From Actinomycetales bacterium (lineage in GTDB: Bacteria; Actinomycetota; Actinomycetes; Actinomycetales; Kineosporiaceae): a stretch of DNA of 38,961 bases. The stretch is taken from contig JAAYAH010000186.1 of NCBI GenBank assembly GCA_012719445.1, positions 1 through 38,961 on the forward strand, in the 5' to 3' direction. Below are positions 1,923 to 31,336 of the stretch, piece by piece (position 1 is the first letter of the stretch; the number at the start of each line of letters is the position of its first letter). The notes under the pieces were generated by a model. That model worked only from the letters and a program-made list of their open reading frames with translations, was not told the DNA's origin and ran no database searches. The translations under genes and the position numbers were made by a program.

Positions 1923-2006
1923 CCCACTCCTCACGTCCCCGAGCCTGACCCGCAGCCGAGTCCTCTTCCAACCACCAGCCGAACCGCAGTTCCGCGATCC
2001 CGCCCT

Positions 2007-2032
2007 GCTCCTCGACCCGCGGGTCGAGGAGC
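2007..2032 (+). terminator. Palindromic hairpin between the two esterase genes
   Basis: A perfect 26-base palindrome: GCTCCTCGACCCG followed directly by its complement, centred on CCGCGG. It lies 85 bases after one esterase stop and 60 bases before the next start. It could form an 11-bp stem with a 4-base loop, best read as a terminator. Because it is an exact palindrome close to a start, an operator role is also possible. Confidence 0.6.
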
Positions 2033-2092
2033 GTCACCGGCCCTCCCGCCCCCCGGGAGTCGCCGTCCTCACTCGAGCCTCCGGGAGAGACC

Positions 2093-3445
2093 ATGACAAT
2101 GACCCGCGCCACCTGCGTACGGGGTGCGGCTCCGGCGCTCCTCGCCCTGGTCGCCGCGTCGCTGGCAATCGTCGGCCTGACCGCGTCACCCGCTACGGCC
2201 AGCGGTACGACCACCACCGACTGTCCGCCGGCAACGAGCAGTTCAGCCGGTCTGCCCAGCGGGATCATGGATGGTCTCGGAGTGTCCACCCTGGCCGCGG
2301 CCACCACCCCGGTCACGGTGTGGATGGCCGGGGACTCCACGATGCAGAACGGCACGAACTGCCCCGTCGGCTGGGGTGCCCAGCTCAGGTCCTACTTCAC
2401 CGGCAGCGTCACGGTGAACAACAGTGCCGTCGGTGGCCGGAGCATCCAGACCTGGCTCTACGACCCGAACGTCACCTCGACGAAGAACGCCGCGGGTGAG
2501 TGCGTGATCAACCCGGCGACCTACTCCACCCGCTGGCAGGCCATGCTGAACTCCTCGACCGGGATGAAGGCCGGTGACTACCTGTTCGTCCAGTTCGGCA
2601 TCAACGACGGCTCCAGCACCTGTCCGCGGCACGTCGGATCGGCCCGGTTCAAGGAGCTCCTCGGCATGATGGTCACGGCAGCCCTGGACCGCGGTGCCCA
2701 CCCCGTCCTGGTGACCCCGGTGGCGGCGATCACCTGTTCCGGGAGCACCGCGGTGGGCAACCGAGGGTTCGTCACCGAGACCAAGGCGGTCGCCGCCAGC
2801 CGCGGGGTGCCGGTCATCGACCTGAACGCCCTGAGCGTGCAGCTCTACAACTCCCTGAAGCTTTGCCCGAACAACAGCGACTACACCAGCGGTGCCGTCG
2901 GGGCGTTCTTCTGCAACGACCACACCCACTTCGAGGCCGCCGGGGCCAGGCAGATCGCCGGCCTGGTGGCTTCGGCCCTTCGCGACCAGGGCATCGGCCT
3001 GGCCGCCTACCTCAACACCGACCCGGTCACGACGACGTCGCCCACGTCGACGACCTCGCCGACCACGACGACGAGCACCACGACGACGAGCCGGACGACC
3101 ACCACCACGACCCAGCCGCCGACCACGACCACGTCGTCCGGGAGCGGCGGCAGGACCTGCACGGCCTCCTACACGGTGGCCAGTTCCTGGCCGGGCGGGT
3201 TCGTGGCCGACGTGAAGGTGACGGCCGGATCCTCGGCTATCACCGGGTGGCGGGTCACCATGACCCTGCCCAGCGGAGCGGCGATCTCCAACATGTGGAA
3301 CGGGATCACCTCCGGCACCAGCGGCACCGTCACGGTGAACAACCAGAACTACAACGGGTCCCTCGGCGCAGGCCAGGCCACCAGCTTCGGCTTCCAGGGC
3401 ACAGGCAGCGGCAGCGGTGCCACCGTCTCCTGCACCGCCGGCTGA
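2093..3445 (+). CDS. Secreted CE12-like rhamnogalacturonan acetylesterase with CBM2
   Basis: A 450-aa secreted SGNH hydrolase resembling carbohydrate esterase family 12 (rhamnogalacturonan or xylan acetylesterase), which deacetylates pectin side regions so lyases can act. A signal peptide covers about residues 1-40. Family landmarks are MAGDSTM with catalytic Ser82, the AVGGRSI block, FGIND with Asn171, and DHTHF with Asp276 and His279 followed by GARQIA. A Thr-rich linker precedes a CBM2 at about 356-450 that matches the modules of the two preceding genes. The start used is the first of two ATGs (2093 and 2099), behind GGGAGAG. The partner esterase upstream and the PL9-like sigma fusion downstream suggest a pectin-directed locus. 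Confidence 0.9.
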   Translation: MTMTRATCVRGAAPALLALVAASLAIVGLTASPATASGTTTTDCPPATSSSAGLPSGIMDGLGVSTLAAATTPVTVWMAGDSTMQNGTNCPVGWGAQLRSYFTGSVTVNNSAVGGRSIQTWLYDPNVTSTKNAAGECVINPATYSTRWQAMLNSSTGMKAGDYLFVQFGINDGSSTCPRHVGSARFKELLGMMVTAALDRGAHPVLVTPVAAITCSGSTAVGNRGFVTETKAVAASRGVPVIDLNALSVQLYNSLKLCPNNSDYTSGAVGAFFCNDHTHFEAAGARQIAGLVASALRDQGIGLAAYLNTDPVTTTSPTSTTSPTTTTSTTTTSRTTTTTTQPPTTTTSSGSGGRTCTASYTVASSWPGGFVADVKVTAGSSAITGWRVTMTLPSGAAISNMWNGITSGTSGTVTVNNQNYNGSLGAGQATSFGFQGTGSGSGATVSCTAG

Positions 3446-3477
3446 CAGCCGTCGCCCGCACCGCCGGCTGATCCCCT

Positions 3478-3522
3478 GCTCCGGTCCCGTCCCGTACCGT
3501 TCGGGCGGGGCGGGACCGGAGC
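3478..3522. terminator. Hairpin between convergent esterase and 175-aa genes
   Basis: GCTCCGGTCCCG (3478-3489) pairs perfectly with CGGGACCGGAGC (3511-3522). The 21-base interior can pair further (CCCG with CGGG). It sits between the plus-strand esterase stop at 3445 and the minus-strand stop at 3605, so it can serve both directions. Confidence 0.75.
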
Positions 3523-3604
3523 CCCTCGCACGAACCTGCCCGGCGCACGTCGTCCCCGCGAGAACGACCGGTGGTGGCCGGTCACCGGGAGACGCCCCAC
3601 CTGC

Positions 3605-4132
3605 TCACCGCCGCGGGGGACACGGCACTCCCTGGTAGTGGATCTCCCCGTTCAACAGGGGACGCAGACGGGCACCCTCTGCTGCGAAGTGGACGAGGAC
3701 CTGGACCCGGGTGCCGTCCGCGCACTCCGCGTCGTAGACGACGAGCGGGCTGCCGTCCTCCTCCGGCCGGTAGGCGATGGGGTGTACCGGCCGTCCGCCG
3801 AACTCCTCGACCAGAAGTGGAGCCAGGACCGGATCCCCTTCGGCCGACCGTCCGGCCATCCGCACCAGACCCGAGGTGTCCCCGTGGGCGATGGCCGCTG
3901 CGACGTCTCCGGCCGCGGTGACCAGGACGGGACGAGGGTCTCCGCTGCCGGAGAATCCGTTGATTCCCTCCGGGCCGACGGTGCCTCCACCGATCCGAGA
4001 GACCACCGTCGGGAGGAGCAGCACAGCCCCGACGAGGGCGGCAGCCCCGACGAGCGCGCGACCGGGTGGTACGGGACGCCCCGCGCCACGCACCGGCTCG
4101 GTCCCACGGGAAGAACCAGACCCTGCCGTCAC
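3605..4132 (-). CDS. Membrane-anchored protein coupled to the sigma-factor fusion
   Basis: A 175-aa protein I cannot assign to a family. It has a short basic Pro/Gly-rich N-terminus, one hydrophobic segment at about residues 26-46 (RALVGAAALVGAVLLLPTVV), and a roughly 125-residue soluble region that should lie outside the cell. That region contains VVYDAECADGTRVQVLVHF and ends in QGVPCPPRR, with two cysteines that could form a disulfide. Its ATG overlaps the stop of the upstream sigma/beta-helix gene (ATGA, 4129-4132), so translation is coupled and the two proteins are likely made in fixed ratio. By context it may be an accessory or regulator of that fusion; this is inference. Confidence 0.8.
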   Translation of the reverse strand: MTAGSGSSRGTEPVRGAGRPVPPGRALVGAAALVGAVLLLPTVVSRIGGGTVGPEGINGFSGSGDPRPVLVTAAGDVAAAIAHGDTSGLVRMAGRSAEGDPVLAPLLVEEFGGRPVHPIAYRPEEDGSPLVVYDAECADGTRVQVLVHFAAEGARLRPLLNGEIHYQGVPCPPRR

Positions 4133-6282
4133 CGCAGCGACGCCCCCACCGTCGAGCCGCCGCGGACGGCGAGGAACGGCGTGGAGGGGAGGTCGCCGTC
4201 GGGAGGGCGAGGGCCCTCCGCCGTCGACGGGTCCGTGCTCAGCAGGGACGCGACTGACCAGCCGGAGGTGTACCAGGAGTTGCCGCGCTCGACGGACCCC
4301 TCGGCGAGAGCCGCCTGCCGCTTCCCGTTTCCGACGGCGAGGTTCGACCTCAGCGTCGCTGCGAACCCGGGAAGGTCGAACCCGTTGTGCCGGTTGCGGA
4401 ACGCGGTGTTCCCCTCGAGAGTGATCATGCCGTTGTTCGTGGCCCCGGTGTAGCCGTCACCGGCGTTGTCCCACGCGGCGCTGTTGGTGATGACGTGATC
4501 CGACGGTCGCTTCCCGGAGTTGAGGACGAACCCGTTCCCGGAACCCCCGTATTCGGTGAGCTTCCATCGGTTGACCCCGTTGTCGAAGGACCAGGAACTG
4601 TCCACGGTCACCGCGCCGACGAAGCTGGCGATCCCCAGCCCGTCGTCGGAGTTGCGGAAGAACCGGCACCTCCGGATGACGTTGCCCTCGCCGGAGCCGA
4701 AGGCCATCAGCAGGCCGTCGGCGTCCGCGCCGTGGTTGGCGTCGTCGTGGTTGTCGAAGAAGTCGCTGTCCAGCACCTGGTTGCGATCGGTGCCGTCGTC
4801 GACGAACGCCAGCCCGCTGCCCTGGTTGTCGTGCATGGAGAGCCGCCGGAAGGTGACGTGCCGGCAGCCGCGGCACACGTACGGGGCCGCGGGGGAGTTG
4901 GCGACCTCGATGCCCTGGACGGTCCAGTACCGACCCCGGTGGGTGACGAACGGTGAGGACGCGGAGACCCTGGCGGCGTCGAGCACCGGTCGCTCGCCCC
5001 GGTAGTTGCTGAGCACGATCCGGCGGGCGGCGGTCCCGTCGGTCTCGATCACCACGGGCATCGTCGGGCGGTACCTGCCGCCGCGCAGCGCGATCGTCTG
5101 CCCGGGGCGTACCACCGAGATCGCCTTGTTCAGGGAGGCGAAGGGACGGCCGAGCGTCCCGGGGGCCGCGTCGTTCCCGTCGGGGGCCACGTACCAGTCC
5201 GCGTCGACGACTCCCGGTCGGCCCGCCCGAGCGGAGGTTCGTGTCGGGGAGGAACCGGTGGCGAAGGACGGCGTGGCCGAGACCGAGGGCGAGGGCGCCG
5301 GCGCGGGTGTCGGCGGCGAGTCCGGGGCGGCCGGCAGGTAGTAGACGGCGAAGCTGAGCGCCGCGGCGGCACCGGCCATGGCAGCTCCGCCGGCGAGGAC
5401 GGGTTTGGCCAGCAGCGACTTCGCGGTCACGGCCTTGGCCCCCGCGGAGGCCGCGGCCGACCCGCCGTGGCCTGCCGCGGCCGCCCCGCTCAGCAGCTCC
5501 GGGAGCCGGTGGAACAGGGTCGCCGGGATCGGCACCAGCGCGATCCCCCGCAACAGGTTCTCTGGACTCACCAGGAGCCGTCCGGTCGCCTCGCAGCGTG
5601 GGCAGTGCCGGGTGTGCCGGGAGAGCCGGTTCAGCTGCTCCGGGCCGGGCACGTCGTGGTGGCCTCGCAGCATGGACTGCAGCGTCCGGCACCGGTGCCC
5701 GGACCGTAGGGCGCGGTGCACCAGTCGGGCCGTGTGCAGCCGGGCCTTCATCCGCTGGACCCGGACCGCGGCGTGCTGCGGAGTGACCCCCAGCGCGTCG
5801 GCCAGGTCCGATCGGGAGAGCGCTCCGGCGAGCTCCTGCCACCACAGGGCCAGCAGGTGCTGGTCCTCCTCCGACAGCAGCCGGGTCGCCTCGGCGATCT
5901 CCCGGCGCTCCCCGGAGAGGCCCAGTTCCAGCACCGTCGCGTCGACGAAGTCGAGCGAGGGGTCCGCCCGGTCACCGAGCTGGTCGAGGGACGACTCCCG
6001 GGCCGTCCGGCGGGTACGAACCCGGGCGCGCTCCTTCACCTGGTTGACGGCGATCGCGAGCAACCAGGATCGGAATCTGTCCGGATCACGCAGGGAACCG
6101 ATGCGCTGGGCCGCGCGGAGCATCGTCTCCTGGACCACGTCGTCGACGTCTGGGTGGCCGTTCATGGCACGCCCGACGACGTTGTAGACCAGCGGCAGGT
6201 GCTTCTCCAGGAGCAGGTCCAGAGCGTGCTTGTCGCCGGTCTGCGCGGCTAGGACCGGTTCGCTCTCAATAGGTGTTTCCAC
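4129..6282 (-). CDS. ECF sigma / zinc-finger anti-sigma / TM / PL9-like beta-helix fusion
   Basis: Residue numbers are for a 717-aa protein starting at GTG 6282. The N-terminus is an ECF sigma factor: region 2 (about 27-87, with DVDDVVQETMLRAAQRI) and region 4 helix-turn-helix (about 135-187, with RSDLADALGVTPQHAAVRVQ). Next comes an H-x3-C-x2-C zinc-binding anti-sigma motif (His223, Cys227, Cys230), one transmembrane helix (about 295-317) and a Pro/Ser/Thr linker. The C-terminus (about 362-707) is a right-handed beta-helix resembling pectate lyase family 9 (WYVAPDGND, GEGNVIRRCRFFRNSDDG, GNGFVLNSG). The Asp ligands at 522, 546 and 547 remain, but the positions matching Pel9A Asp237 and catalytic Lys273 appear to be Gly550 and Val585, so a binding sensor is more likely than a lyase. 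The frame runs to TTG 6366; GTG 6282 is preferred for AAAGG about 9 bases upstream and because family similarity starts there. Confidence 0.9.
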   Translation of the reverse strand: METPIESEPVLAAQTGDKHALDLLLEKHLPLVYNVVGRAMNGHPDVDDVVQETMLRAAQRIGSLRDPDRFRSWLLAIAVNQVKERARVRTRRTARESSLDQLGDRADPSLDFVDATVLELGLSGERREIAEATRLLSEEDQHLLALWWQELAGALSRSDLADALGVTPQHAAVRVQRMKARLHTARLVHRALRSGHRCRTLQSMLRGHHDVPGPEQLNRLSRHTRHCPRCEATGRLLVSPENLLRGIALVPIPATLFHRLPELLSGAAAAGHGGSAAASAGAKAVTAKSLLAKPVLAGGAAMAGAAAALSFAVYYLPAAPDSPPTPAPAPSPSVSATPSFATGSSPTRTSARAGRPGVVDADWYVAPDGNDAAPGTLGRPFASLNKAISVVRPGQTIALRGGRYRPTMPVVIETDGTAARRIVLSNYRGERPVLDAARVSASSPFVTHRGRYWTVQGIEVANSPAAPYVCRGCRHVTFRRLSMHDNQGSGLAFVDDGTDRNQVLDSDFFDNHDDANHGADADGLLMAFGSGEGNVIRRCRFFRNSDDGLGIASFVGAVTVDSSWSFDNGVNRWKLTEYGGSGNGFVLNSGKRPSDHVITNSAAWDNAGDGYTGATNNGMITLEGNTAFRNRHNGFDLPGFAATLRSNLAVGNGKRQAALAEGSVERGNSWYTSGWSVASLLSTDPSTAEGPRPPDGDLPSTPFLAVRGGSTVGASLR

Positions 6283-6305
6283 CCGGGAGTGCCTTTCTGA
6301 CGGCC

Positions 6306-6332
6306 ACCGACCGAATCGGTTCACCGGTCGGT
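6306..6332 (-). promoter_or_regulatory. Inverted repeat upstream of the sigma-fusion start
   Basis: ACCGACCG (6306-6313) and CGGTCGGT (6325-6332) are perfect inverted 8-mers separated by 11 bases, and the left arm overlaps a smaller palindrome, CCGAATCGG. The site ends 24 bases upstream of the preferred GTG. It could be an operator or a 5' UTR hairpin. If the longer frame to 6366 is translated it would lie inside coding DNA. Confidence 0.4.
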
Positions 6333-6831
6333 CCCGCATGCTCACACGTGGCCTCGAAGGAGTCAACAGCGCGCCGTGCAGGCGAGGAAATGAGGGTTCC
6401 CATGATGACGATTGCGGGGTAGGCCGTTATTCCAGGGTTTCCCGAACCGTCACGACCGCCTGTCCCGAGCGGTGGTGCTCACGGTGAGCGGCTGTGCTCA
6501 TGCGACACCGCGTCGCCCGGGTCAATCTCTGCCCGTGGTGGATCCGCGGCTCACGAGACGGACCGGGGCCGCCCGCCCCACTCGGGGAGGTCTCCTCCGG
6601 AGTGCCGGGGCGGTCGTGCGCACGCGTACCGCCCACGGCACCCCGCTGGGCGCCGGGACCCTTGGCACCGTCGTCGGGTTCGCAGTCACTGCTGTCTGCG
6701 TGCTCCTCTGGGTGTCGCTCATCGGCGCGGTTCCCCCTGGAGCTGAGCCCGCACGGGGCGCGGACCACGTCCTGCAGGGGGCGGTGGCGGTGGATCCCCC
6801 CGATTCATGCATGACGGACAGTGATCGTGCC

Positions 6832-6837
6832 TATACT
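6832..6837 (+). promoter_or_regulatory. Candidate -10 element for the 204-aa gene
   Basis: TATACT lies 26 bases before the preferred ATG at 6863 and is a good -10 match in otherwise GC-rich DNA. No -35 with ideal spacing is evident (TGACGG is only 14 bases upstream). Confidence 0.4.
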
Positions 6838-6862
6838 GACGATCATCTGCTTTGGGGGAACC

Positions 6863-7477
6863 ATGGGCATCGCAGGCAGCACGTCCCGCCTCGTCCGGTA
6901 CGTGTCCCGCCGGTCCGATGGCTGTCCGTCAGCCGACGACACGGGGTCGAGCCCTCTCGGCTGGCTGGTCGTCGGCGCCCTGACGCTGGCGGCCGCGGCG
7001 TTCGCCTACGCGGTCCTCGTCGGTGACGAGGTGGAGTCGATCGATCTCGGCCCTCAGGGCGCCAAGGTCTCGTTCCAGGGGGCCGCGGGGGAGACGCTCT
7101 CGCCGGAACAGGTGCGCCACAACGAGGCGACCGTCGAGGAGCGGCTCGCCACGTTGGAGTCGGAGGCCATGGCTCGGGCCGATCCTGAGTCGGCGGCCGG
7201 TGTCGAGCGGATCGCGGGGATCTGGGACGCGAGGAACGGGTTCCAGTACGTCATCCAACAGTTCGGTGACCAGGCGGTGATCCAGGAGCAGAGTGCCTAC
7301 GGGATCACCGCCTCCGGGACGGGGACGGTCCGCGGCCCCGACGTGTCGTTCCAGGTCCAGGCCGTCAACGGGGTCAGCTCCGTGCTGCAGGTGAGCCTCG
7401 TCGAACCGGGCCTCCTCCGGGGCACGTTGAGCAACCAGTTCGGATCCTTCCCGGCCGAACTGCGCCTGCTCCCCTGA
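6863..7477 (+). CDS. Single-pass membrane protein of unknown function
   Basis: A 204-aa protein that I do not recognise. A short basic cytoplasmic N-terminus (STSRLVRYVSRRS) is followed by one transmembrane helix at about residues 30-52 (LGWLVVGALTLAAAAFAYAV). An acidic, probably helical stretch rich in Glu (about 75-110) leads to a beta-rich C-terminal half. The ATG at 6863 is preferred over an in-frame GTG at 6821 because GGGGGAA stands 3-8 bases before it and because the GTG would lie upstream of the candidate -10 at 6832. It is divergent from the sigma fusion and convergent with the GH9 gene, separated from the latter by a strong terminator. Its location suggests, but does not show, a role in the carbohydrate locus. 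Confidence 0.75.
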   Translation: MGIAGSTSRLVRYVSRRSDGCPSADDTGSSPLGWLVVGALTLAAAAFAYAVLVGDEVESIDLGPQGAKVSFQGAAGETLSPEQVRHNEATVEERLATLESEAMARADPESAAGVERIAGIWDARNGFQYVIQQFGDQAVIQEQSAYGITASGTGTVRGPDVSFQVQAVNGVSSVLQVSLVEPGLLRGTLSNQFGSFPAELRLLP

Positions 7478-7586: not shown

Positions 7587-10238
7587 TCAGGACGCCGAGC
7601 AGGACAGGGTCGGGGTGGCCGACCCGCCGCGGAGGAATCCGGTGACCCCGAAGGTCGTCGAGGCCCCCGGGGCGAGCGACCCGTTGTAGCTCTGGTTCGT
7701 CACCTGAAGGGCCTGGCCGCCGGCAGCGGCCACCACACCGCCCCACAGGTCGTAGACGGACTGCCCGGACGCGCAGGTCCAGGTGACCGTCCAGTCGGTG
7801 ATGTTCGACGTCCCGGTGTTGGTCACCGTGACCGACCCCTGGTACCCGCTGTTCCACGAGCCGACCAGGTCGTAGTCCGCGGTGCAGCCTCCGCTGCCGG
7901 CGCCACCGGTCGGCATGGCCGGTGCGGTACTGCCGCCGGTGGGAGCCCAGCAGACCCCACCGCCGGTGGAGGTGGTGGTCGTCCCGGTTCCCGTGTCGGT
8001 GCCCGTCGTCCGGGTGGTGGACCGGGTGACGGTGTACCCGGGCTCGGGTTCGGCGCCGAAGACCAGCGTCCCGTCCTTGTAGACCGGGATCCGCTGGGTC
8101 GGCTCGAACTCCTTGCTGCCCAGTCCCGAGCGGCTGTAGTCGTTGTCGGCGTCCCAGTAGTCCTGGTAGGTGACGGAACTCTGCTTGGCGATCAGGCCGA
8201 ACTGGAGGTCCCGCTTGCCGATGAAGGCGCCCGGCCAGGAGATGGTGACGTAGTAGAGGTTGCCCGACGTGCCGACCCGGGTGGGACCGGTGAGCGTCGC
8301 CGGCTTGTCGCCGACGCCCGCAGCCTCGTCGTAGTAGATCGCGGTCTCGACATCGGCGACGGTCTCACCGGCGTCGATGAGCTCGCTGATGTCGAAGTAG
8401 TACCGGGCGGACAGGTCGTCGACCAGCGTCGGCGGGGTGACCGTCTCCTGGTGGATCCGGACCGAGACCTGGCTGCGCTGGTTGCTCTCCTGCTCGACCT
8501 TGGCGTCCAGCCAGAACGGGTTGGTCTTCTCCTCGGCCGGCGGCGTCCAGACGGTGTTGGTCTGACCGGAGCCGAAGTAGGTGAAGAGACCGGCGAGGGC
8601 ACCGACGAACCCGGCGTTGTAGTCGATGGTGACCTCGTTGTAGACGAAGTCCCTGGTCTCGTCGTTGTGCTGGTCCTTCATGTCCGGCCCGCCTGCCAGG
8701 GCACCCCAGAGGATGTGCCGGTGCTCGGGCGGGTCGAACATGCTGTTGGTCAGCGAGCCGTGCGCCGCCCGGTGGTGCGGGTGCTGGACGTGGTGGTCGG
8801 TCTCCCTGGCGGTGAAGCCGACGATGTAGGAGCGGTTCAGCGGGTTGTCACCCATGATGTAGTTCATCTGGGACAGCGCCCACTGGGACAGCTCCACGCC
8901 GTGCTCGACCGAGCCCAACGGATCCGCCGCGGCGTGTTTGCGGTAGACCAGTGCGCAGAGCTGGGCCGCGGTGTTGTACCGGGCGGAGCCCCAGCCGTTG
9001 ACGACGCTGAACCCGCCGGGGCTGGCCTCCATGTAGGCGTTGCCGCTGATGTTGCCCATGTGCTCGACGGCCCCGGCCGTCCAGTACTCGATGTTCCAAC
9101 GGAAGTAGAACCAGAAGTCCGTGTTCATCGTGTCGGAGACCACGCCCTTGGTCAGCGGCGCGAGCAGGGCGAAGGCGCCGCCCCAGACGACGTCCCAGGA
9201 GTGCACCCAGATGTTCTGCCAGGTGCTCCGCGGGTCGCTGATGATCTTCTTCATGTACCCGGTGTACTCACCGGCGGAGTTCCGGGCGGCGATGGCGTCG
9301 ACGTAGGAGACGTCCTTCGTCGCGGCGAACAGCCAGGCAGCGGCCCAGGACAGCTCGTCCTCGTCGTAGGCGGAGCCGTAGAAGCCGCCGCTGAAGCCGA
9401 TGCCCCGGTTCGCCACCGCGAACTCGTAGAGGGCCTTGCCCGCCTCGAAGCACCGCTTGGAGTACGCGGGGTCGTCCTCCGCCGTCAGCAGCGACATGGC
9501 GGTCAGTGCCGCCGACGCCCCGGCCGCCTGGTCGGAGCCGGGCGTCTCGGCGGTGGCGAACATGGCTCCGCGCGGGTGGTGCAGCAACTCCGGTGGCGTC
9601 CACTCGGTGTGGTCGATGGAGCCGTTGCCGACCTGGTAGTTGAACGCGATGACCTTGCCGCTGGAGTCGCGGAAGGTGGACTTGAGGAAGTAGTCGTTGA
9701 ACCAGTACAGCTGGTCCATGATGTGGTCGTAGCTGCCGGTCTCGACATAGGCGTCCTTGAACTCGTACACCCCCCAGGCCAGGGTGGAGGCGGCGAAGGA
9801 CTGCGGCAGGCCGAACTTCACGTGGTCACCCGCGTCGTGGAAGCCCTGGGACAGGTCCAGGTAACCGTCGCCGTCGGGATCGAGGACCGACCGGTACTTG
9901 CTGATGAACGACGACGACAGGTTCGTCCCGGACACGACGATCTGACCGGCGTCCAGCTTTCCCGTCACCAGTTCGATCTTCGCGTCCTCCGGCTCGGAGT
10001 CGGCCCGCCACTCCAGCGGCTGACGGTCCATCGAGCGAGCCGGGCCGGACTTCTCCGCGTCGTAGAAGTAGATGGATTTCTGCAAGGCCTCGCTGAGGTT
10101 TCCGTACGGCGTGGAGGTCAGGGTCGGCGACGCAGCGTCCACCGGTCCGGCTCCGCCCGTGAGCAGGCCGATGGTGAGCGCGACGGCCCCGCACCCGGCA
10201 ACGCCGTGGAAAGCCCTCCTGTGGTCTCCGCGATACAC
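7587..10238 (-). CDS. Secreted GH9 cellulase with CBM3c and CBM2
   Basis: An 883-aa secreted endoglucanase with the architecture of processive family 9 cellulases such as Thermobifida Cel9A. After a signal peptide (about 1-35) comes the GH9 (alpha/alpha)6 barrel, with SQGFHDAGDHVKFGLP holding Asp135 and Asp138 (nucleophilic-water aspartates) and YNEVTIDYNAGF holding the acid Glu535. A CBM3c, the module that feeds a cellulose chain into the barrel, follows at about 573-726 (starting NPFWLDAKVEQ). A Thr/Gly linker carries a small Cys-flanked insert (CWAPTGG...GSGGC). A CBM2 closes the protein at 785-883; it is clearly diverged from the near-identical CBM2s at 1-3445. The GTG start at 10238 is chosen for AAAGGAG 8 bases upstream and an adjacent signal peptide, although the frame stays open to 10421. 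Confidence 0.95.
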   Translation of the reverse strand: MYRGDHRRAFHGVAGCGAVALTIGLLTGGAGPVDAASPTLTSTPYGNLSEALQKSIYFYDAEKSGPARSMDRQPLEWRADSEPEDAKIELVTGKLDAGQIVVSGTNLSSSFISKYRSVLDPDGDGYLDLSQGFHDAGDHVKFGLPQSFAASTLAWGVYEFKDAYVETGSYDHIMDQLYWFNDYFLKSTFRDSSGKVIAFNYQVGNGSIDHTEWTPPELLHHPRGAMFATAETPGSDQAAGASAALTAMSLLTAEDDPAYSKRCFEAGKALYEFAVANRGIGFSGGFYGSAYDEDELSWAAAWLFAATKDVSYVDAIAARNSAGEYTGYMKKIISDPRSTWQNIWVHSWDVVWGGAFALLAPLTKGVVSDTMNTDFWFYFRWNIEYWTAGAVEHMGNISGNAYMEASPGGFSVVNGWGSARYNTAAQLCALVYRKHAAADPLGSVEHGVELSQWALSQMNYIMGDNPLNRSYIVGFTARETDHHVQHPHHRAAHGSLTNSMFDPPEHRHILWGALAGGPDMKDQHNDETRDFVYNEVTIDYNAGFVGALAGLFTYFGSGQTNTVWTPPAEEKTNPFWLDAKVEQESNQRSQVSVRIHQETVTPPTLVDDLSARYYFDISELIDAGETVADVETAIYYDEAAGVGDKPATLTGPTRVGTSGNLYYVTISWPGAFIGKRDLQFGLIAKQSSVTYQDYWDADNDYSRSGLGSKEFEPTQRIPVYKDGTLVFGAEPEPGYTVTRSTTRTTGTDTGTGTTTTSTGGGVCWAPTGGSTAPAMPTGGAGSGGCTADYDLVGSWNSGYQGSVTVTNTGTSNITDWTVTWTCASGQSVYDLWGGVVAAAGGQALQVTNQSYNGSLAPGASTTFGVTGFLRGGSATPTLSCSAS

Positions 10239-10534
10239 GTGCAAGCTCCTTTCGGAAACTCCGATAACAAGGTGCGCCGCGCTGAGCCGAAATATGTCTT
10301 GCGGGGAATGCCCCGGCTCGGTGTGTTCGCGGAAGGTAGCTCGCGGAAGCGATTCGCGGAAGACCTGGCGATAGGTTTCGATCGGATTTCCGGTCGATCT
10401 GGTCCACATCCGGCTTCTCAACAGGAGGAATACTTCTCCCGAGCTGTTGTGATATTGATCTCATGTTGCCCTCGTGTCGACATCCTCACCGTCTCCCGGA
10501 TTCCCGAGGGTGACGGGACGACGTCCCTGCGTCG
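10239..10534. other. GH9 promoter region
   Basis: This is the non-coding region between the GH9 gene and the 3' repeats of the lanthipeptide synthetase gene. It holds the GH9 ribosome-binding site (AAAGGAG), three TTCGCGGAAG-type repeats (separate entry), and a small palindrome GGGACGACGTCCC at 10515-10527. I could not pick a convincing -35/-10 pair, and I saw no CebR-type TGGGAGCGCTCCCA site. Confidence 0.5.
10326..10362 (-). promoter_or_regulatory. Three direct repeats TTCGCGGAAG upstream of GH9
   Basis: TTCGCGGAAG (10326-10335), CTCGCGGAAG (10340-10349) and TTCGCGGAAG (10353-10362) recur every 13-14 bases, 88-124 bases before the GH9 start. Each core is also a TTC-N3-GAA inverted repeat, except that the middle copy begins CTC. 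A related TTTCGGAAA lies at 10250-10258. The helical-phase-like spacing suggests an operator for a cellulase regulator. Confidence 0.45.
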
Positions 10535-10602
10535 CGGCAGCCCCATTCGGAGAGCGGCAGTCCCACCCGAAGAGCGGCAGTCCTACTCGAAGAGCAGCAG
10601 GT
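10535..10602 (-). repeat. 20-bp tandem repeat at the lanM 3' end
   Basis: Three 20-bp units (10535-10554, 10555-10574, 10575-10594) begin with CGGCAG and end in AGAG on the plus strand, followed by a partial fourth starting CAGCAG. The unit at 10575-10594 contains the LanM stop codon; the others lie just beyond it. They look like decayed tandem copies of the last codons of the gene. Confidence 0.7.
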
Positions 10603-13600
10603 TCGGGACGGCGTGCGGCCGGGCCAACCGGAGGAACCCGTAGCCGATCCCGGCGAGGCCCTGGAACAGGCCCGGGTGGTTCAGGGTGACCGGAAGCCGG
10701 GACGAGACCCGGAACCCCGAGCCGTCGCGGGCCCGGTATGCCATCTCGCCGGCCCACCCGTGCGCGGTGTCGGCAAGGTCGGGCCGTCCGAGCGCCAGCC
10801 CGGCCGAGTGGAGGAACTCCAGCCGGCCGAGGTTGCCGCAACAGAGGTGGTCGACCCCGTTGAGGCCGTACCGCAGCGTCTCCTCGACACAGCTGTCGAC
10901 GTCTGCGACCAGGTCCGTGCGGTCGAGGTACGGGAGCGCGCCGAGGCGGGCGACGCCGATCCCGGGCCCGCCATGGCACCAGCTCACCAGCCCGCCGCTC
11001 CGGCCGGTGCCCGGGAGCCACGACCCGGTCCCGGGGTCGCGCAGGGTTCGTTCGAAGGCCATCGCCTCCCGGGCCGCCGCGAGGTAGGCGGCGTCGGGCA
11101 CGAGCTCGTGGAGCCGGCACAGCGCGTAGGCGATGCCCGCGGCACCGTGCGAGAACCCGGACAGGTAGCACCGGTCGGGGCTCGCCCAGGCACGCAGGCC
11201 GCCGCCGGGGTCGCCGCGTCGTTCCAGGAGGTGGTCCCCGCAGCGCCGGGCGGCGTCGCGGACCGCAGTGCCGGGTCGGACGGCGTGCAGCCGGACGAGA
11301 CCCAGGATCGCCCCCGCGCTGCCGTACACGACGTCGAGGGCGCCGTCCGCCGCGATCCGCCGCGGCGTGAGGTGCCGGGCGACCCACTCCGCCTCGTCGA
11401 CGAGCTGCTCGTCGCCGAGCCACTCGCCGGTTGCGGCGAGGGCGTAGATGATCGATCCCAGGCCGACTCCCACCCCGAGGCTCGTCTGCTCCGCCCCGGG
11501 ATCGTCCGCGACCCGGGGGAGGTTCCGGCGCAGGGTTGCCATCGCCGAGTAGGCCATCCGGCGCCGGCTGTCGTCACCCCCGCACGCGTGCAGGGCGGCG
11601 AGGAACAGCGCGATGCCGGTGCTCCCGGCGAACAGCGTCTCGTCGACCGGTCGGAGGTGGTACTGGCTGCCCTGCGGCAGCTGGTTGGCGCAGACCCAGG
11701 TGCGGCTGCCGTCCTCGGAGACGATCGCCCGGTCCGCCATCTCCCCGGCGAGCCGCTCGGCGAGCGCCAGGTACTCCGCGCCGTCGAGCCGCCGGGGCCA
11801 GCACTCGCTCGCGGCCGGCGGCGCCTCCCGCTCCTCGACGTGGAACTGGGTGCGTTCCTTGAGCACGAACGCGGCCCGGATCAGGGCGTCCTGGAACTCG
11901 AGATCGCCGGGGGACAGGCTCTCGATCTTCTCGACGGCGACGTCGATGCCCGACCGGGTGAGGAACCCGGGCAGGCGTCGTCCGTCCGCCATGACCAGGT
12001 CGGTGTCCCCGGCCCGGACCGCGAAGTGGGGGACGTCGAGCCGCAGCAGCGCCGCGAACTCCTCGTGGAACACCGGCCAGCCGGCGGGGGGCGAGCCGCC
12101 GGCGTCCGGGTAGTGCCGGCTCAGCCGGTCCAGGACGACGCTCCGGTGGATCCCGGAGCGGACGGAGGTCCGTTCCATGCTCGCGCGCAGCAGCTCGGTG
12201 TAGATCCGGGTCGACCGCAGGACCACCCGGATCCGGGCGGAGGCCAGTCGTCGCAGCGGGGCGTCCGCCGTGAGGATCCTCCGGCGGACGGTGAGCAGGC
12301 CCAGGTACACCTCGCGGAACCCGCGCACGATCTCCTCGAGATGGTCCACCGGTCTCGCGACGCCGTCGCTGAGGTGGGGGACGTTCGCGTACGGTCGCAC
12401 CCGGCCGGGCACGTGCCGGCGCTCCATCCCGTCGCTGTTCGGATCGTCCCAGACCGGGTAGACGCTGCCGACCGGGTGCTCCTCGACACAGCCGAAGCCG
12501 CTCACGTCGAAGGCGTCGCCGGTGGCACCGACGACCCAGCTCGGCAGCAGCCCGGTGGCGAGCACCGAGCGGCGCAGCCGTCGCATCGCGACGACGTAGG
12601 CCGACGGCGTTCCGTCGAACCGCTCGACGTCCCGCTGACCCTGCAGGACGGTCTCCGCGTCCACCAGCACCGGGTACTCGCCGTCGGCCACGATGTTCTC
12701 GAAGTGACAGTCACCCGCCTCCAGGGCGAAGAGCACGCACAGCAGCGCCCCGGCCCGCTCGTAGTACGCGCGCGCGTCCTCCGGGCCGGCGCACGGCCGG
12801 TGGGCGACGTACTCCACCCACCCGTGGTCCTGGCGGTCCACGTGCCGCAGGACCCGGAACCACCGTCGCCCCAGGAGCTCGTTGAGGCTGCCGAGCAGGG
12901 CGTTGAATCCCACCTCTGCGGCAAGGCTCTTCGGCTTGTACACGACCCGGACCCCGGACTCGAACGCGCAGATCATCACCGTGCGGCCGCGGTGGTGGCG
13001 GTCGGAGCGGTCGTCCGCGATCCGGACCACCGCGCCGAGGGCCGTCCCCCCGAAGACTGCCTCCAGGGCGGCGGCGTCGGCGTGGAGGCGCAGGACGAAC
13101 TCGGCCTTGGCCTCGATCCAGAACTCGATCACTTGTCCGATCAGGCGGGCGAGCGCGGCGTGTTCCAGGAAGAAGTCGGCTGCCCGGTGGGTACGGAAGA
13201 AGGCGATGAACCGGTCGTAGACGTGGTGGTGCGGCCCGGCGGTCCTTCGCCGGACGATGGCGTGGAGCGACGTCTGCACGGTGGCCCTGAAGGTTGCGAA
13301 CTCGTGGTCCAGCGCGGGAGAGGCCAGCCGGGACAGCAGCCGGAGCAACTGCAGGCCCAGGTCCTGCTCGGCCGAGTCCGAGAGCCGGACGCGGGAGGCG
13401 TCGACGGCCCGGGTCCGCAGCTCCCGGCCAGCTGCCTCGACGGCGCCCGTGAACAGCTCCCGGAACTGCGTCTCGTCCGGCGACCGGCTGCGCCCGCCGT
13501 CCGGCCGGTCTCCGGACTCGGCCGGATCGAGCAGCTCGGTGAGGAACAGCCGGAACCAGGTCACCCAGGACGGGAGCCCGGCCGTGACCGGAAGTTCGTC

Positions 13601-13822
13601 GTCGGTGAGCAGCGGCAGGAGCCCGGGCTCGTCGAACCCGTCCCAGGAGAGCCGGCGGGCGAACCGGGTGGCGTCCTCGCCGGCGACGTTCGCCTGCCAC
13701 AGCCGCACCAGATCCTCAGCCGCCGGGCTACCCGTCGCCTGCCCGGGTTCCCGGGAGGCGCGCTCGTACACCGAGGCAGCTCGACCGGCCAGCCGTCGCC
13801 AGTAGTCCGCACCCGGCGTCAT
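10583..13822 (-). CDS. lanM: Class II lanthipeptide synthetase LanM (CCG type)
   Basis: A 1079-aa bifunctional enzyme that dehydrates Ser/Thr in a precursor peptide and then adds Cys thiols to form lanthionine rings. The N-terminal dehydratase has the kinase-like signatures YKPKSL (Lys296, Lys298), GDCHFENI (Asp371, His373, Asn376) and VDAETV (Asp388, Glu390). The C-terminal LanC-like toroid has WCHGGPG (Cys949, His950) and HLCCGNLG (Cys994, Cys995). The CCG variant, giving three Cys zinc ligands, is known from ProcM-type enzymes, which are noted for tolerating diverse substrates. The length is normal for LanM. The ATG lies 7 bases after the stop of the upstream gene, so it is the last gene of a three-gene operon. 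No transporter or leader protease follows. Confidence 0.95.
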   Translation of the reverse strand: MTPGADYWRRLAGRAASVYERASREPGQATGSPAAEDLVRLWQANVAGEDATRFARRLSWDGFDEPGLLPLLTDDELPVTAGLPSWVTWFRLFLTELLDPAESGDRPDGGRSRSPDETQFRELFTGAVEAAGRELRTRAVDASRVRLSDSAEQDLGLQLLRLLSRLASPALDHEFATFRATVQTSLHAIVRRRTAGPHHHVYDRFIAFFRTHRAADFFLEHAALARLIGQVIEFWIEAKAEFVLRLHADAAALEAVFGGTALGAVVRIADDRSDRHHRGRTVMICAFESGVRVVYKPKSLAAEVGFNALLGSLNELLGRRWFRVLRHVDRQDHGWVEYVAHRPCAGPEDARAYYERAGALLCVLFALEAGDCHFENIVADGEYPVLVDAETVLQGQRDVERFDGTPSAYVVAMRRLRRSVLATGLLPSWVVGATGDAFDVSGFGCVEEHPVGSVYPVWDDPNSDGMERRHVPGRVRPYANVPHLSDGVARPVDHLEEIVRGFREVYLGLLTVRRRILTADAPLRRLASARIRVVLRSTRIYTELLRASMERTSVRSGIHRSVVLDRLSRHYPDAGGSPPAGWPVFHEEFAALLRLDVPHFAVRAGDTDLVMADGRRLPGFLTRSGIDVAVEKIESLSPGDLEFQDALIRAAFVLKERTQFHVEEREAPPAASECWPRRLDGAEYLALAERLAGEMADRAIVSEDGSRTWVCANQLPQGSQYHLRPVDETLFAGSTGIALFLAALHACGGDDSRRRMAYSAMATLRRNLPRVADDPGAEQTSLGVGVGLGSIIYALAATGEWLGDEQLVDEAEWVARHLTPRRIAADGALDVVYGSAGAILGLVRLHAVRPGTAVRDAARRCGDHLLERRGDPGGGLRAWASPDRCYLSGFSHGAAGIAYALCRLHELVPDAAYLAAAREAMAFERTLRDPGTGSWLPGTGRSGGLVSWCHGGPGIGVARLGALPYLDRTDLVADVDSCVEETLRYGLNGVDHLCCGNLGRLEFLHSAGLALGRPDLADTAHGWAGEMAYRARDGSGFRVSSRLPVTLNHPGLFQGLAGIGYGFLRLARPHAVPNLLLFE

Positions 13823-13829
13823 CCGTCTC

Positions 13830-16061
13830 TCACCGGACCGGCGGCCGGCAGCGGGTCGCGGCCACGGCGGCCTTGAGCACGTAGGCGGCGGTCACGGTCG
13901 GGCTGCTCCAGGTCACGGTGCGTGGGTGCCCGCCGGTGCGGTGGAGGTCCATCCGGATGAACGGCTCGCCGACCCACCTGGCTGTCGTGGACCGTCCGGC
14001 GAGCCAGTCGAGACCGCGGTCGGTTGCGGCGTCGATCGTCGCCTCCCCGGGCGTTCCCGGCACTCTGGCCTCGAACAGGCCGAGCAGGGCGAGAGCCGTT
14101 GACAGCACCTCGTCCGAGTCCCCGCAGCCCCAGGCACCTGATGGGCGCTGGCGTCGGAGCAGGAAGTCGACGCTCTCGGTGGGCACGTCCCCGTCGACGC
14201 GTCGCAGGAGACGCAGCGCGACCCAGGTGCCGTAGAAGGGGCCCTGGTACCAGGTACTCCGCCACCAGCCGCCCGGTTCCATCGCACCGGCCAGGTGGCG
14301 CGCTCCAGCGACGAGGAGACCCGGGTAGCGGTCGCCGTCGTCGAGGAGGGCGACGGCGTGCAGGAAGTTCGCGATCACCTCGGGGTCGAGAGTGTCGCCC
14401 CAGGCGAGTCGCACGAACTCGCGCTGACGGTCCTGGGCCGCGGTGTGCCCGCTCCCCGGCAGCAGCCAGGTGGAGACCGCGCCGTCGGCGGGCGCGGTGT
14501 CCACGGCCAGGTCGAGCAACGGGCGGGCGTAGGCGTCCAGGGCGTCCCCGGCCCCGTTGCGGACGAGTACCTGGGTCACCTGGGCGAGCGTGTCCGCGTC
14601 GGGGGGCAGCTCGGAGAGCTCGGGGAAGTAGGCCCAACCCTGCTCCGGGTCAACCCGCCTCTCGGCGACGATGGCGTCGACCTCCTCGAGGAGCAGCGGA
14701 TCGAGTTGGCCGTTCCACACCTCGTTGGCGTCGGTCAGGGCATCGGCGATGATCGCGCGCGGGAACACCCTGCCCACCTGGCGCTCCGAGTCGTTCCGGA
14801 AGCCGTCCAGGAACGGGAAGGCCATCACGTGCACGGCGTCCGGGAAGTCCTCGCACCACTCCCGCAGGAGGTGGTCGAGACTCGCGACCAGCGGTACCGA
14901 GGCAGCGACGGCGTCCGGTCGGGGGAGCTCGGCCAGTTCCCGCACGAGCAGGTGCCGACGCCAGGACCGGGACAGCTGCAGTCCTCGGACCCCAGGGGAC
15001 GGTGCGCGACGGGCCTTGACCAGGGCACCGAAGTACAGCTTGGCCTCGAGGGGACCCCCGTCGCCGTAGCTGACCTTCACGTGGTCGAAACCCTTGATCG
15101 CGTACGGCTCGGCTCCGCCGCGCCGCTCGCCCTGCGTGGTCAGGACCTCGACGCCCGGCCACGCGCGCAGGTGCTCCCATGCCTCGGGTCGGCACAGCCC
15201 GAGCGCGATGAGGAACTGGAAGAAGTCCTCCCATCGCGGGGTGACCGCCGGGGTGCGCGGTCCGAGGTGGCACTCGAACCCGACGCCGGGGTGGACCCGC
15301 CCGCCGACGGTGACGGCGAGGGAGACGGCGGGGGAGAGGCGGAAGAGCTTCCCGGCCAGGGCGTCGACCCGCTGTCCGGGGCCACGCCAGCCGATGGCGT
15401 CCAGGTACTCCGGCAGCCGGTCCCGGGGGAGATCCCTGACCACGAGCCGGAACAGGGAGACGTCCCGGGGGAGCATGAGCCCGAGCTGGAAGATCTCCGC
15501 GTGGTCGGGCAGCGCGGCCCAGCACCGGGTGAGATTGGCGCTCACCGGCTCGGGGACGGGCGCGCCGCGGACCTCCCCGACGACGCGCAGCAGGCCCGCG
15601 AGATCACCGGGGCCGGCGGAGTTGCCGCGCAGCGGCGCGCCGAGACCGATGAACAGGCTCGGCACCTCCCGGGGCGGCCGGCGATGGGCGAGGTCGAACT
15701 CGAGCCAGCAGTTGTCGAACCAGGGGTAGGGCGGGGTCTCGTCGGCGAGCCTGCCGAGGAAGGCGCCGAGCCGCCGCCACTCCGGGTGCCGGCGGCCCTG
15801 CTCGCGCCCCGGCGGTGTCGCGCACCAGGCGAGGAACGACTCCAGGCTGCCGTCGCCCCGCTTGAGGCAGAGCATGTGGTCCAGCCCGGCGCCGGGGTCA
15901 CCGAGCCTCGCCTCCCAGCCCAGCTCCTCGACCTCCGGCAGGTTCGCGATCAGGTCGCCCGGGTCCGGCCGGTGCGAGTCCGGGAACACCACGGGCAGCT
16001 GCCGCCAGAGCTGGTCGACGATCCTCGGGGGTGGTCGGACATCGGGCAGGGGACGGGTCAC
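13830..16061 (-). CDS. Two-part protein with C-terminal squalene-cyclase-like alpha-toroid
   Basis: A 743-aa protein between the precursor and lanM. The N-terminal ~400 residues match no family I recognise. The segment around GFDHVKVSYGDGGPLEAKLYF faintly recalls aromatic prenyltransferase strands, but that is weak. The C-terminal ~330 residues carry alpha-toroid repeats of the prenyltransferase/squalene-oxidase type: QGWAYFPELSELPPDADT, WWRSTWYQGPFYGTWVALRL and QRPSGAWGCGDSDEVLSTAL. The position equivalent to the class II cyclase DxDD reads DADT (Asp488, Asp490, Thr491), so canonical terpene cyclisation is uncertain. The GTG start overlaps the precursor stop (GTGA, 16058-16061), implying translational coupling. 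The likely role is modification or handling of the lanthipeptide; the reaction is unknown. Confidence 0.88.
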   Translation of the reverse strand: MTRPLPDVRPPPRIVDQLWRQLPVVFPDSHRPDPGDLIANLPEVEELGWEARLGDPGAGLDHMLCLKRGDGSLESFLAWCATPPGREQGRRHPEWRRLGAFLGRLADETPPYPWFDNCWLEFDLAHRRPPREVPSLFIGLGAPLRGNSAGPGDLAGLLRVVGEVRGAPVPEPVSANLTRCWAALPDHAEIFQLGLMLPRDVSLFRLVVRDLPRDRLPEYLDAIGWRGPGQRVDALAGKLFRLSPAVSLAVTVGGRVHPGVGFECHLGPRTPAVTPRWEDFFQFLIALGLCRPEAWEHLRAWPGVEVLTTQGERRGGAEPYAIKGFDHVKVSYGDGGPLEAKLYFGALVKARRAPSPGVRGLQLSRSWRRHLLVRELAELPRPDAVAASVPLVASLDHLLREWCEDFPDAVHVMAFPFLDGFRNDSERQVGRVFPRAIIADALTDANEVWNGQLDPLLLEEVDAIVAERRVDPEQGWAYFPELSELPPDADTLAQVTQVLVRNGAGDALDAYARPLLDLAVDTAPADGAVSTWLLPGSGHTAAQDRQREFVRLAWGDTLDPEVIANFLHAVALLDDGDRYPGLLVAGARHLAGAMEPGGWWRSTWYQGPFYGTWVALRLLRRVDGDVPTESVDFLLRRQRPSGAWGCGDSDEVLSTALALLGLFEARVPGTPGEATIDAATDRGLDWLAGRSTTARWVGEPFIRMDLHRTGGHPRTVTWSSPTVTAAYVLKAAVAATRCRPPVR

Positions 16062-16783
16062 AGGGGTTCGGGTCCGGTCGGCGCGTCTGCGGTGTCCCAG
16101 GTGAGGATGTCGCCGGACCCGCACGCCGTCCAGCACTTGCAGCCGTCGTCGTTGGTGAAGTCGATGTCACCGCACTGGTGCGTCTGGTCGGTGGTCAGCG
16201 GTTGGCAGCCGACGCACTCGGGGATCGGTCCGTTCGGTCCCCCGCCCCAGCCGCCGCCCCCGCCGCCCCACCCGTTCCCGCTCGCGTGGGCCTGGCCGGC
16301 CGCGAGGAGAGCGCCGTGCTGGGCGAGGTAGTAGTCGCCCGGGAGGTAGGCGACGCTCTGGGGGAGGACGACGTGCTCGGCCTCCTCGGTGTCCTCGAGC
16401 ACGGTGATGGTGACCTCGTCACCGAGGTCGACGTCGAGCCGGCGCCGGATGAAGGCCCTGGTGTCCCGCTTGAGCACCTCCTTGCCCTTCTCGTTGGTCA
16501 TCGCCCAGGCGATGAGGTCGAGGACGGGGTCGTTCGCCAGCTCCGCCTGCACGATGAGCTTCGAGTGTTTCTTCGGCAGGACGAGGTAGAGCTCGGTGTC
16601 CGTCTCCTCGACCACCACCAGCCGCTTCCCGGGAGGGAGGACCCGGTGGAAGTCGCGCAGCAGTTGCTCAGCGGAGAGCATGCGTTCGGGATCAGCCAGC
16701 AGCGCCGTGCGGTACTTCGCCTCGCTCGTCGCCCGGCCGATGATCATGTGCTTGAGCAGGAAGAGACCGGTGGGTTCGGCCAT
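16058..16783 (-). CDS. Lanthipeptide precursor with duplicated NHLP-type leader
   Basis: A 241-aa precursor, long for a lanthipeptide. Two tandem segments resemble the nitrile-hydratase alpha-subunit leader (NHLP): about residues 18-72 (ALLADPERML...RLVVVEETDTELYLVLP) and 84-142 (DLGDEVTITVLEDTEEAEHVVLP). A small-residue stretch (GALLAAGQAHASG) and a Gly/Trp spacer (about 170-183) lead to a C-terminal core of about 52 residues. The core has six Cys (190, 193, 204, 215, 217, 221) and nine Ser/Thr, suited to several (methyl)lanthionine rings. The ATG has GGAGG 12-16 bases upstream. First gene of the operon with lanM. The Cys spacing CxxC...CxC could alternatively bind metal; LanM next door favours ring formation. 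Confidence 0.9.
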   Translation of the reverse strand: MAEPTGLFLLKHMIIGRATSEAKYRTALLADPERMLSAEQLLRDFHRVLPPGKRLVVVEETDTELYLVLPKKHSKLIVQAELANDPVLDLIAWAMTNEKGKEVLKRDTRAFIRRRLDVDLGDEVTITVLEDTEEAEHVVLPQSVAYLPGDYYLAQHGALLAAGQAHASGNGWGGGGGGWGGGPNGPIPECVGCQPLTTDQTHQCGDIDFTNDDGCKCWTACGSGDILTWDTADAPTGPEPL

Positions 16784-31090: not shown

Positions 31091-31263
31091 AGACGGAGAG
31101 TCGGCAGCGGCGCTGTCCCTCCTGAAGGACAGGTGGTCGAACCCACAGGTGACCCAGGGGTGTCGCCGCCGACGTGTGGGGTGCAACCGAACGATTCGGG
31201 CGGACGAAGGACCGCTCTCGTGGGTGGACCCGCCGCGAGGCCGCCGTCCGGCTCGCACAGCGG

Positions 31264-31301
31264 ACTGGCGGGCTCCCCCGGTCATGGGGGAGCCCGCCAG
31301 T
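31264..31301 (-). terminator. Terminator of the sdhCAB operon
   Basis: A perfect 16-bp stem (ACTGGCGGGCTCCCCC, 31264-31279, pairing with 31286-31301) with a 6-base loop, 36 bases after the sdhB stop on the minus strand. Confidence 0.92.
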
Positions 31302-31336
31302 CGTGCCCGGCCGTGGCCGGAGACCACCCTGCTGGG

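Follow-up and report, generated by a model that had tools for sequence, protein, structure and literature searches.

Few known enzymes form cyclised terpenes directly on peptides of ribosomal origin. According to the passages devoted to them in a 2026 review (PMC13290415), which cites Hubrich et al. 2024 for both, NctPC joins a P domain of the ABBA-barrel type to an MstE-like C domain, and geranylgeranylates a Trp before its C domain cyclises the chain, and ChrPC performs like chemistry with a P domain resembling trans-isoprenyl diphosphate synthases (trans-IDS). MppC, an ABBA-type enzyme from a class II lanthipeptide cluster, is leader-dependent and geranylates one core Trp (PMC12715784). Here we analyse a stretch of 38,961 nucleotides (hereafter, the window; contig JAAYAH010000186.1, assembly GCA_012719445.1) from an actinobacterium of the Kineosporiaceae, containing an operon for a ribosomally synthesized and post-translationally modified peptide (RiPP). 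The operon codes, in this order, for a lanthipeptide precursor, for a predicted fusion of a prenyltransferase-like (P) and a terpene-cyclase-like (C) domain, and for a type 2 lanthipeptide synthetase (LanM). With a probability of about two in three, the product of this operon is a lanthipeptide whose Trp bears a cyclised isoprenoid, formed by the combined action of LanM, P and C through steps that we propose below.

The three genes are on the minus strand and tightly spaced. The GTG start of the P-C gene at 16061 shares bases with the TGA stop of the precursor gene (GTGA), and the LanM gene starts 7 nt past the P-C stop codon. An earlier note on this DNA had already proposed a three-gene lanthipeptide operon with a CCG-type LanM, and we found both. 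The note had also given the middle gene as an open reading frame (ORF) of 768 amino acids (13830-16136); the gene is indeed present, but the 743-aa version is more likely, because the start of the longer ORF is located within the precursor gene. Likewise, its description of the product as a squalene-cyclase-like toroid protein holds for the second half and overlooked the first. The features considered are the following:

16058-16783, minus strand: precursor peptide gene, 241 aa, matching TIGR03793 in two stretches
16556-16753, minus strand: first NHLP-like lobe of the precursor, residues 11-76 (TIGR03793, 31.5 bits, E 6.4e-7, below the cut-off when alone)
16349-16516, minus strand: second NHLP-like lobe, residues 90-145 (TIGR03793, 23.8 bits, E 1.8e-4, below the cut-off when alone)
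16061-16228, minus strand: Cys-rich C-terminal stretch, residues 186-241, presumed core, whose translation has 6 Cys, 9 Ser/Thr and 2 Trp
16130-16132, minus strand: Trp218 in CKCWTAC, putative prenylation site, suggested by the Cys-flanked Trp that precursors from related loci contain
13830-16061, minus strand: P-C fusion gene, 743 aa, probable GTG start overlapping the precursor stop
15012-16061, minus strand: P domain, residues 1-350, ABBA (PT-barrel) prenyltransferase-like by AlphaFold, Foldseek and VIA
13833-14879, minus strand: C domain, residues 395-743, monodomain class II terpene-cyclase-like by profile comparison with PDB sequences
14589-14600, minus strand: DADT motif, D488-T491, at the class II general-acid position, found by pattern and also present in MstE
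10583-13822, minus strand: LanM, type 2 lanthipeptide synthetase, 1079 aa (TIGR03897, PF13575, PF05147)
10835-10843, minus strand: CCG motif of the LanC part, C994-G996, within HLCCGNLG

AlphaFold models of the P half were built from eight sequences. The model of the full 743-aa protein (predicted local distance difference test score, pLDDT, 54.9) was good in its N-terminal half only, and that of the P half alone reached a pLDDT of 71.5 and a predicted template-modelling score of 0.76. The modelled P half contains ten strands in five pairs, with helix pairs between them. Prenyltransferases, which we take to be ABBA (PT-barrel) enzymes, made up all of the best 50 of 247 Foldseek matches (E ≤ 10) of the P-alone model and also its best 50 VIA matches (top Z 16.8, root-mean-square deviation 4.2, 299 residues aligned). 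The full-length model agreed, since prenyltransferases again occupied the best 50 matches of both programs (Z 16.8, 305 residues aligned), and no alternative fold for P appeared among the matches listed. These comparisons argue for an ABBA prenyltransferase fold in the predicted model of the P half, and a middle protein consisting of a toroid alone was rejected in view of the five strand pairs and the ABBA matches. Relatives of residues 1-345 show about 20-35% identity, and twelve residues are invariant over the 23 rows of the P alignment, window included (E50, D61, W95, W119, E121, G194, R205, L220, E263, K329, K341 and Y343). At E ≤ 0.01, the P halves of these 23 members gave no match to any Pfam or NCBIfam family. 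P would therefore represent a family of prenyltransferase fold that these databases do not recognise, occurring in RiPP loci of cyanobacteria, myxobacteria and an Azospirillum plasmid.

The C profile retrieved squalene-hopene cyclase (2.4e-27), 8pak (9.5e-25), 8paj (1.7e-24) and MstE (1e-5) from the PDB sequences, and the window C domain by itself matched Pfam SQHop_cyclase_C with E=0.0035, below the gathering score. Judged by these profiles, C belongs to the monodomain class II terpene cyclases of about 349 residues. Its DADT conforms to the DxDD/DxD[ST] acid pattern and is common to the window, MstE and the cyclase of locus L056 (loci retrieved in our searches carry numbers with the prefix L). 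Reading this motif as a broken DxDD that weakens the cyclase assignment was rejected because MstE has DADT as well; the MstE chain 6sbe carries DANT instead, presumably because this acidic catalytic residue was mutated.

A tree of 13 C domains, comprising the window and 12 further rows and leaving MstE itself outside, separates the window, four fusions and two stand-alone cyclases from six P-adjacent cyclases (split 100/100). The closest row is a Gemmatirosa fusion, L002, with 34% identity to the window C, and because of long branches the exact place of the latter within its half of the tree is unsure. The front half of the fusion L065 (read as L118) is a clear polyprenyl synthase (polyprenyl_synt, 56.5 bits, cut-off 27). 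Those of L002 and L061 gave weak matches below the cut-off (E 0.016 and 0.018), and a joint profile of the three fronts reaches polyprenyl synthetases at E 5e-5. The isoprenoid-synthase label is thus firm for L065 only, and the front of L064 has no assignment. As a separate observation, the L061 fusion (7694-9589), which combines the weakly isoprenoid-synthase-like half with a cyclase in a ChrPC-like layout, comes from a Myxococcus qinghaiensis contig, as does L010, and a small Cys-containing ORF upstream of it (6655-6960) could be a RiPP precursor.

LanM matched TIGR03897 with 757.9 bits (cut-off 304), PF13575 (DUF4135) with 353.7 and PF05147 (LANC_like) with 176.7, all of them above the family cut-offs, and these profile scores place the 10583-13822 product among the class II lanthipeptide synthetases. 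It gave the sole DUF4135 match in a search of the whole genome. In its LanC part, CCG stands in place of CHG; we take this CCG to be the zinc site and the enzyme to be ProcM-like. Like ProcM, a prochlorosin-type LanM, the enzyme has the CCG motif in its LanC part, and the window differs in having one precursor with one Cys-rich stretch.

The precursor matched the NCBIfam leader_NHLP family of proteusin-type leaders (TIGR03793) marginally, with 51.2 bits for a cut-off of 50.9, distributed over the two lobes. No further NHLP stretch was found in the same genome at E ≤ 1, a lax threshold at which 5 of 14 control genomes also match, none of them above the cut-off. The double NHLP leader put forward in the earlier note stands as regards the leader type and the two stretches; a recent duplication was rejected, because BLAST gave no significant match of one lobe to the other (best E=3.1). 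The nitrile hydratase alpha chain (NHase-alpha) profile of Pfam gives one match that spans both lobes (residues 13-142, profile positions 43-158; 22.3 bits, below the cut-off of 27.2), and its NCBIfam counterpart TIGR01323 likewise spans both, below cut-off. A profile of nine NHase alpha chains matches each lobe by its C-terminal half only, and single-lobe NHLP leaders from other loci match NHase alpha as well. Since the lobes are not recent duplicates and the NHase-alpha match runs across both, the leader could be described equally well as two-lobed and NHase-alpha-like or as a doubled NHLP leader.

Given the ABBA fold predicted for residues 1-350, the expected chemistry is prenylation followed by terpene cyclisation. 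In the proposed pathway, the enzymes would bind the NHLP-type leader of the precursor; LanM would dehydrate Ser/Thr residues and then form thioether rings on the six-Cys C-terminus; and the P domain would modify a core Trp, most likely the Cys-flanked Trp218, with an isoprenoid that is probably long (C15-C20). The fused C domain would then protonate and cyclise the attached chain by means of the DADT acid motif, and the presence of both domains in a single chain could allow the prenylated peptide to be passed from the P to the C active site.

The step assigned to C has an alternative, namely that P prenylates the lanthipeptide and C, without cyclising, has a role in docking or substrate binding, which would yield an ordinary prenylated lanthipeptide. 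It would agree with the absence of a recognised cyclase from the surroundings of most P genes, and with the window having DADT where its nearest relatives along the tree path, L002 and L115, have DLDD or DADD. Nevertheless, MstE and the P-adjacent L056 cyclase have DADT as well, and by pattern 12 of the 13 C rows retain DxD with D, S, T or V as the next residue, with L061 as the exception, so that we consider a non-cyclising C unlikely.

Cyclisation by C of a chain that P has placed on a Trp, which remains our preferred reading, is also in line with the neighbourhoods of related genes. The neighbourhood survey covered 46 loci, or 44 distinct P loci after removing L002, which has no P, and L051, from the plasmid that L005 already represents. 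The 44 cannot be counted as independent, as they include near relatives (L004/L007, L009/L010/L011/L105, L110/L111/L112 and L095-L101) and three loci of one genome (L108, L109 and L114). A LanM gene lies near P in 17 of the 44 (L003, L004, L005, L007, L009, L010, L011, L012, L048, L049, L056, L105, L106, L109, L110, L111 and L112), and a cyclase gene of the MstE/8PAK kind adjoins P in six (L056, L107, L108, L110, L111 and L112), the L108 cyclase being identical to PDB 8pak. LanM, P and a separate C occur together in L056, L110, L111 and L112. Conversely, neither LanM nor P was found in the eight loci reached through the C domain, some of them shorter than 10 kb.

The earlier note held that absence of the toroid gene from most homologous loci would refute its reading, and such absence is largely what we found: a cyclase gene is beside P in only six of the 44, so that the constant element is the prenyltransferase. 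Nine further P loci, all from Myxococcota (L095-L103), contain ORFs of 699-1009 aa from stop to stop, in which the P domain is C-terminal, behind a repeat-like half, in the reverse order of the window fusion. A profile from four of these nine fronts found squalene-hopene cyclase at E=0.0019 over 26 positions, and the L099 front has no Pfam match, so these fronts can be called toroid-like with doubt.

Precursors in the related loci were identified in two ways. A scan for leader patterns, without any requirement for Trp, detected precursors in 11 of the distinct P loci, and in eight of these there is a core Trp. The Trp is placed between Cys residues in L009, L011 and L105 (SCDWCSC) and in L109 (SCCWESC), and at the C-terminus in L003, L007, L048 and L050, where 16 of the 17 precursor-like ORFs show it. 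Other scans, which did require Trp, found GCTWGVSCQSSSN near P in L056, with the core stretch GCTWGVSC, as well as SCTWGANCGK in L110, L111 and L112 and SCGWDSCN in L106; these cores illustrate the pattern and are no test of it, because the filters demand Trp and loci lacking it are missed. By family, the precursors of L056 (below the cut-off), L003, L005 and L012 are NHLP-like and that of L048 is Nif11-like; L111 gave no match.

These precursors bear on another alternative, in which the target of P-C would be a small aromatic molecule or a residue that is not Trp, and a different pathway would account for the presence of P-C in the operon. In this respect, the NHLP precursors of three distinct loci (L005, the same as L051, L012 and L046) have no core Trp, the P gene of L013 adjoins the gene of an eCIS_core protein, which is not a recognised RiPP gene, and the substrate of MstE is reportedly a small molecule (Moosmann 2020). 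Against it, the start of the P-C gene overlaps the precursor stop, LanM recurs in the 17 P loci listed, and a core Trp is found in most of the loci with leader-pattern precursors; we hence regard a substrate other than the core Trp as improbable. Decay of the cluster, or its joining by assembly error into a remnant without a working product, is highly improbable: the long P branch, the rarity in the phylum samples and the 283-contig draft genome would fit it, yet there are three open frames, tight coupling, family-level matches, a kept DADT motif and residues invariant across the P rows.

Several observations weigh against a terpene-bearing lanthipeptide, in addition to the Trp-less precursors. 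The P profile found nothing significant among PDB sequences (best E 0.26, unrelated), so that, with no Pfam or NCBIfam match either, the kinship of P to ABBA enzymes is at the level of fold only; the window P also has a very long branch (2.73) and is unplaced, and for both reasons its function could have drifted. AlphaFold modelled the C half poorly (pLDDT about 40), and the C fold is consequently based on sequence profiles. LanM was not seen in 27 of the 44 distinct P loci, some of whose stretches stop at contig ends, and CKCWTAC in the window core differs in order from the CTWGxxC of relatives. As for accessory functions, we found no protease, no prenyl-diphosphate synthase within the operon and, in the genome, no NHLP exporter above the family cut-off; the 91 weaker exporter matches resemble ordinary ABC transporters, and all of the 14 control genomes have such matches too.

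In the phylum of the window, the P profile matched 1 of 396 genomes, and in its class 1 of 364, in both of these overlapping samples the source genome itself; the full P-C protein matched none of 97 related genomes. Strong P matches occurred in 14 of 292 genomes from the phylum of a Nostoc strain, out of 36 raw matches from which 22 were dropped as weak and confined to the C-terminal end of the model (about 305-419), a part in which one row has a fused oxygenase, and in 22 of 146 from the phylum of a Myxococcus strain. The C profile matched 2 of 296 genomes in the window's class at 1e-12 (its own and a weaker one), 13 of 292 in the Nostoc phylum at 1e-9, and 6 of 11 genomes or records behind loci retrieved earlier at 1e-3. 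Several of the weaker matches may be ordinary squalene cyclases. In viral contigs, none of 35 pattern matches in a cyclase search was confirmed.

When compared with the described systems, NctPC and ChrPC by their description in the review and MppC likewise by description, the window protein fits the NctPC type, combining a predicted ABBA P domain with a class II C domain in a single chain, the P-before-C order of NctPC being taken from its name. Both would be two-domain enzymes in which an ABBA prenyltransferase and a monodomain cyclase act on a RiPP Trp, and both show low sequence similarity to cyanobactin enzymes; in turn, the review likens the C domain of NctPC to MstE, whereas the window C falls on the other side of the split in the C tree. 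With ChrPC, as the review describes it, the window protein shares the P and C fusion, and the window C domain is nearest to that of L002, whose front is weakly isoprenoid-synthase-like; it differs in the ABBA rather than isoprenoid-synthase fold of P. The MppC/MppE/MppM system (PMC12715784) also pairs an ABBA-type prenyltransferase with a class II LanM, and its leader-dependent prenylation of a Trp in a macrocyclised core resembles what we propose for the window; its leader is of the Nif11 type and no cyclase domain is described for MppC. Finally, MstE, 8pak and 8paj are likewise single cyclase domains with a DxD[ST] motif, and the 8pak gene adjoins a P-family gene, but they are separate proteins, and the P-adjacent C genes form the major C-tree branch opposite to the window C.

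The earlier note had expected a new type of modified lanthipeptide. NctPC, ChrPC and MppC have been described, the first two in the review as fusions acting on RiPP Trp (PMC13290415, PMC12715784), so this kind of pathway is already in print, although the combination of parts in the window looks new. The window is set apart by the placement of its C domain, the absence of the system from the other sampled genomes of the phylum and the two-lobed leader. Because its C groups with isoprenoid-synthase-like fusions and stand-alone cyclases, and not with ABBA-adjacent cyclases, the window fusion looks domain-shuffled, and the simplest reading of the sequences would be an independent fusion of an ABBA P domain to a ChrPC-like C domain, with NctPC and ChrPC known from their description. 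We suggest, tentatively and as a possibility that may well not hold, that such a shuffled synthase, encoded in an operon of just three genes and acting on a precursor whose two-lobed leader resembles NHase-alpha, produces a polycyclic terpene on a multi-ring lanthipeptide unlike the products of NctPC and ChrPC. With the window system one would learn whether the two kinds of module, prenyltransferase and cyclase, can be exchanged across lineages, which bears on designed peptide-terpene hybrids, and being compact, with three genes and both steps in one chain, it should be easily moved to a laboratory host.

Other P loci showed further features. A conserved protein of about 595 aa is found beside P in seven RiPP loci (L003, L004, L007, L048, L049, L050 and L052; e.g. 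L007:9147-10928), with no match to PDB sequences (best E 0.33) or Pfam; with P, it is possible that these loci constitute a C-terminal Trp prenylation system. In the Acaryochloris plasmid pMB07 (L006:7700-9323), P matches extend over three open frames of an apparently broken gene; a Nif11-type precursor and a RiPP radical SAM C-methyltransferase are encoded nearby. In L013, the P-family gene (317-1624) is followed by the frame 1609-3978 with eCIS_core (Pfam E 9.9e-32), a domain that belongs with contractile injection systems and not with RiPPs.

In the window, with a G+C content of 70.8%, the operon is flanked by a GH9 cellulase with CBM2/CBM3 and by a DUF985 cupin, as identified with Pfam, and a Pfam scan of 22 window ORFs, several of them without match, revealed no other RiPP families. 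The cellulase (7587-10421) is part of a cluster of CBM2-bearing enzymes that also includes a CE2/GDSL esterase (456-1922) and a GDSL esterase (2093-3445). A single minus-strand ORF (4129-6366) has sigma-70 region 2 at the front and a right-handed beta-helix (Pel9A-like) at the back. Two neighbouring minus-strand genes (24676-27540 and 27590-31327) each code for a LacI-type periplasmic-binding domain with PAS and GGDEF, the second adding EAL, and their products look like fusions of sugar sensors to domains for cyclic di-GMP turnover.

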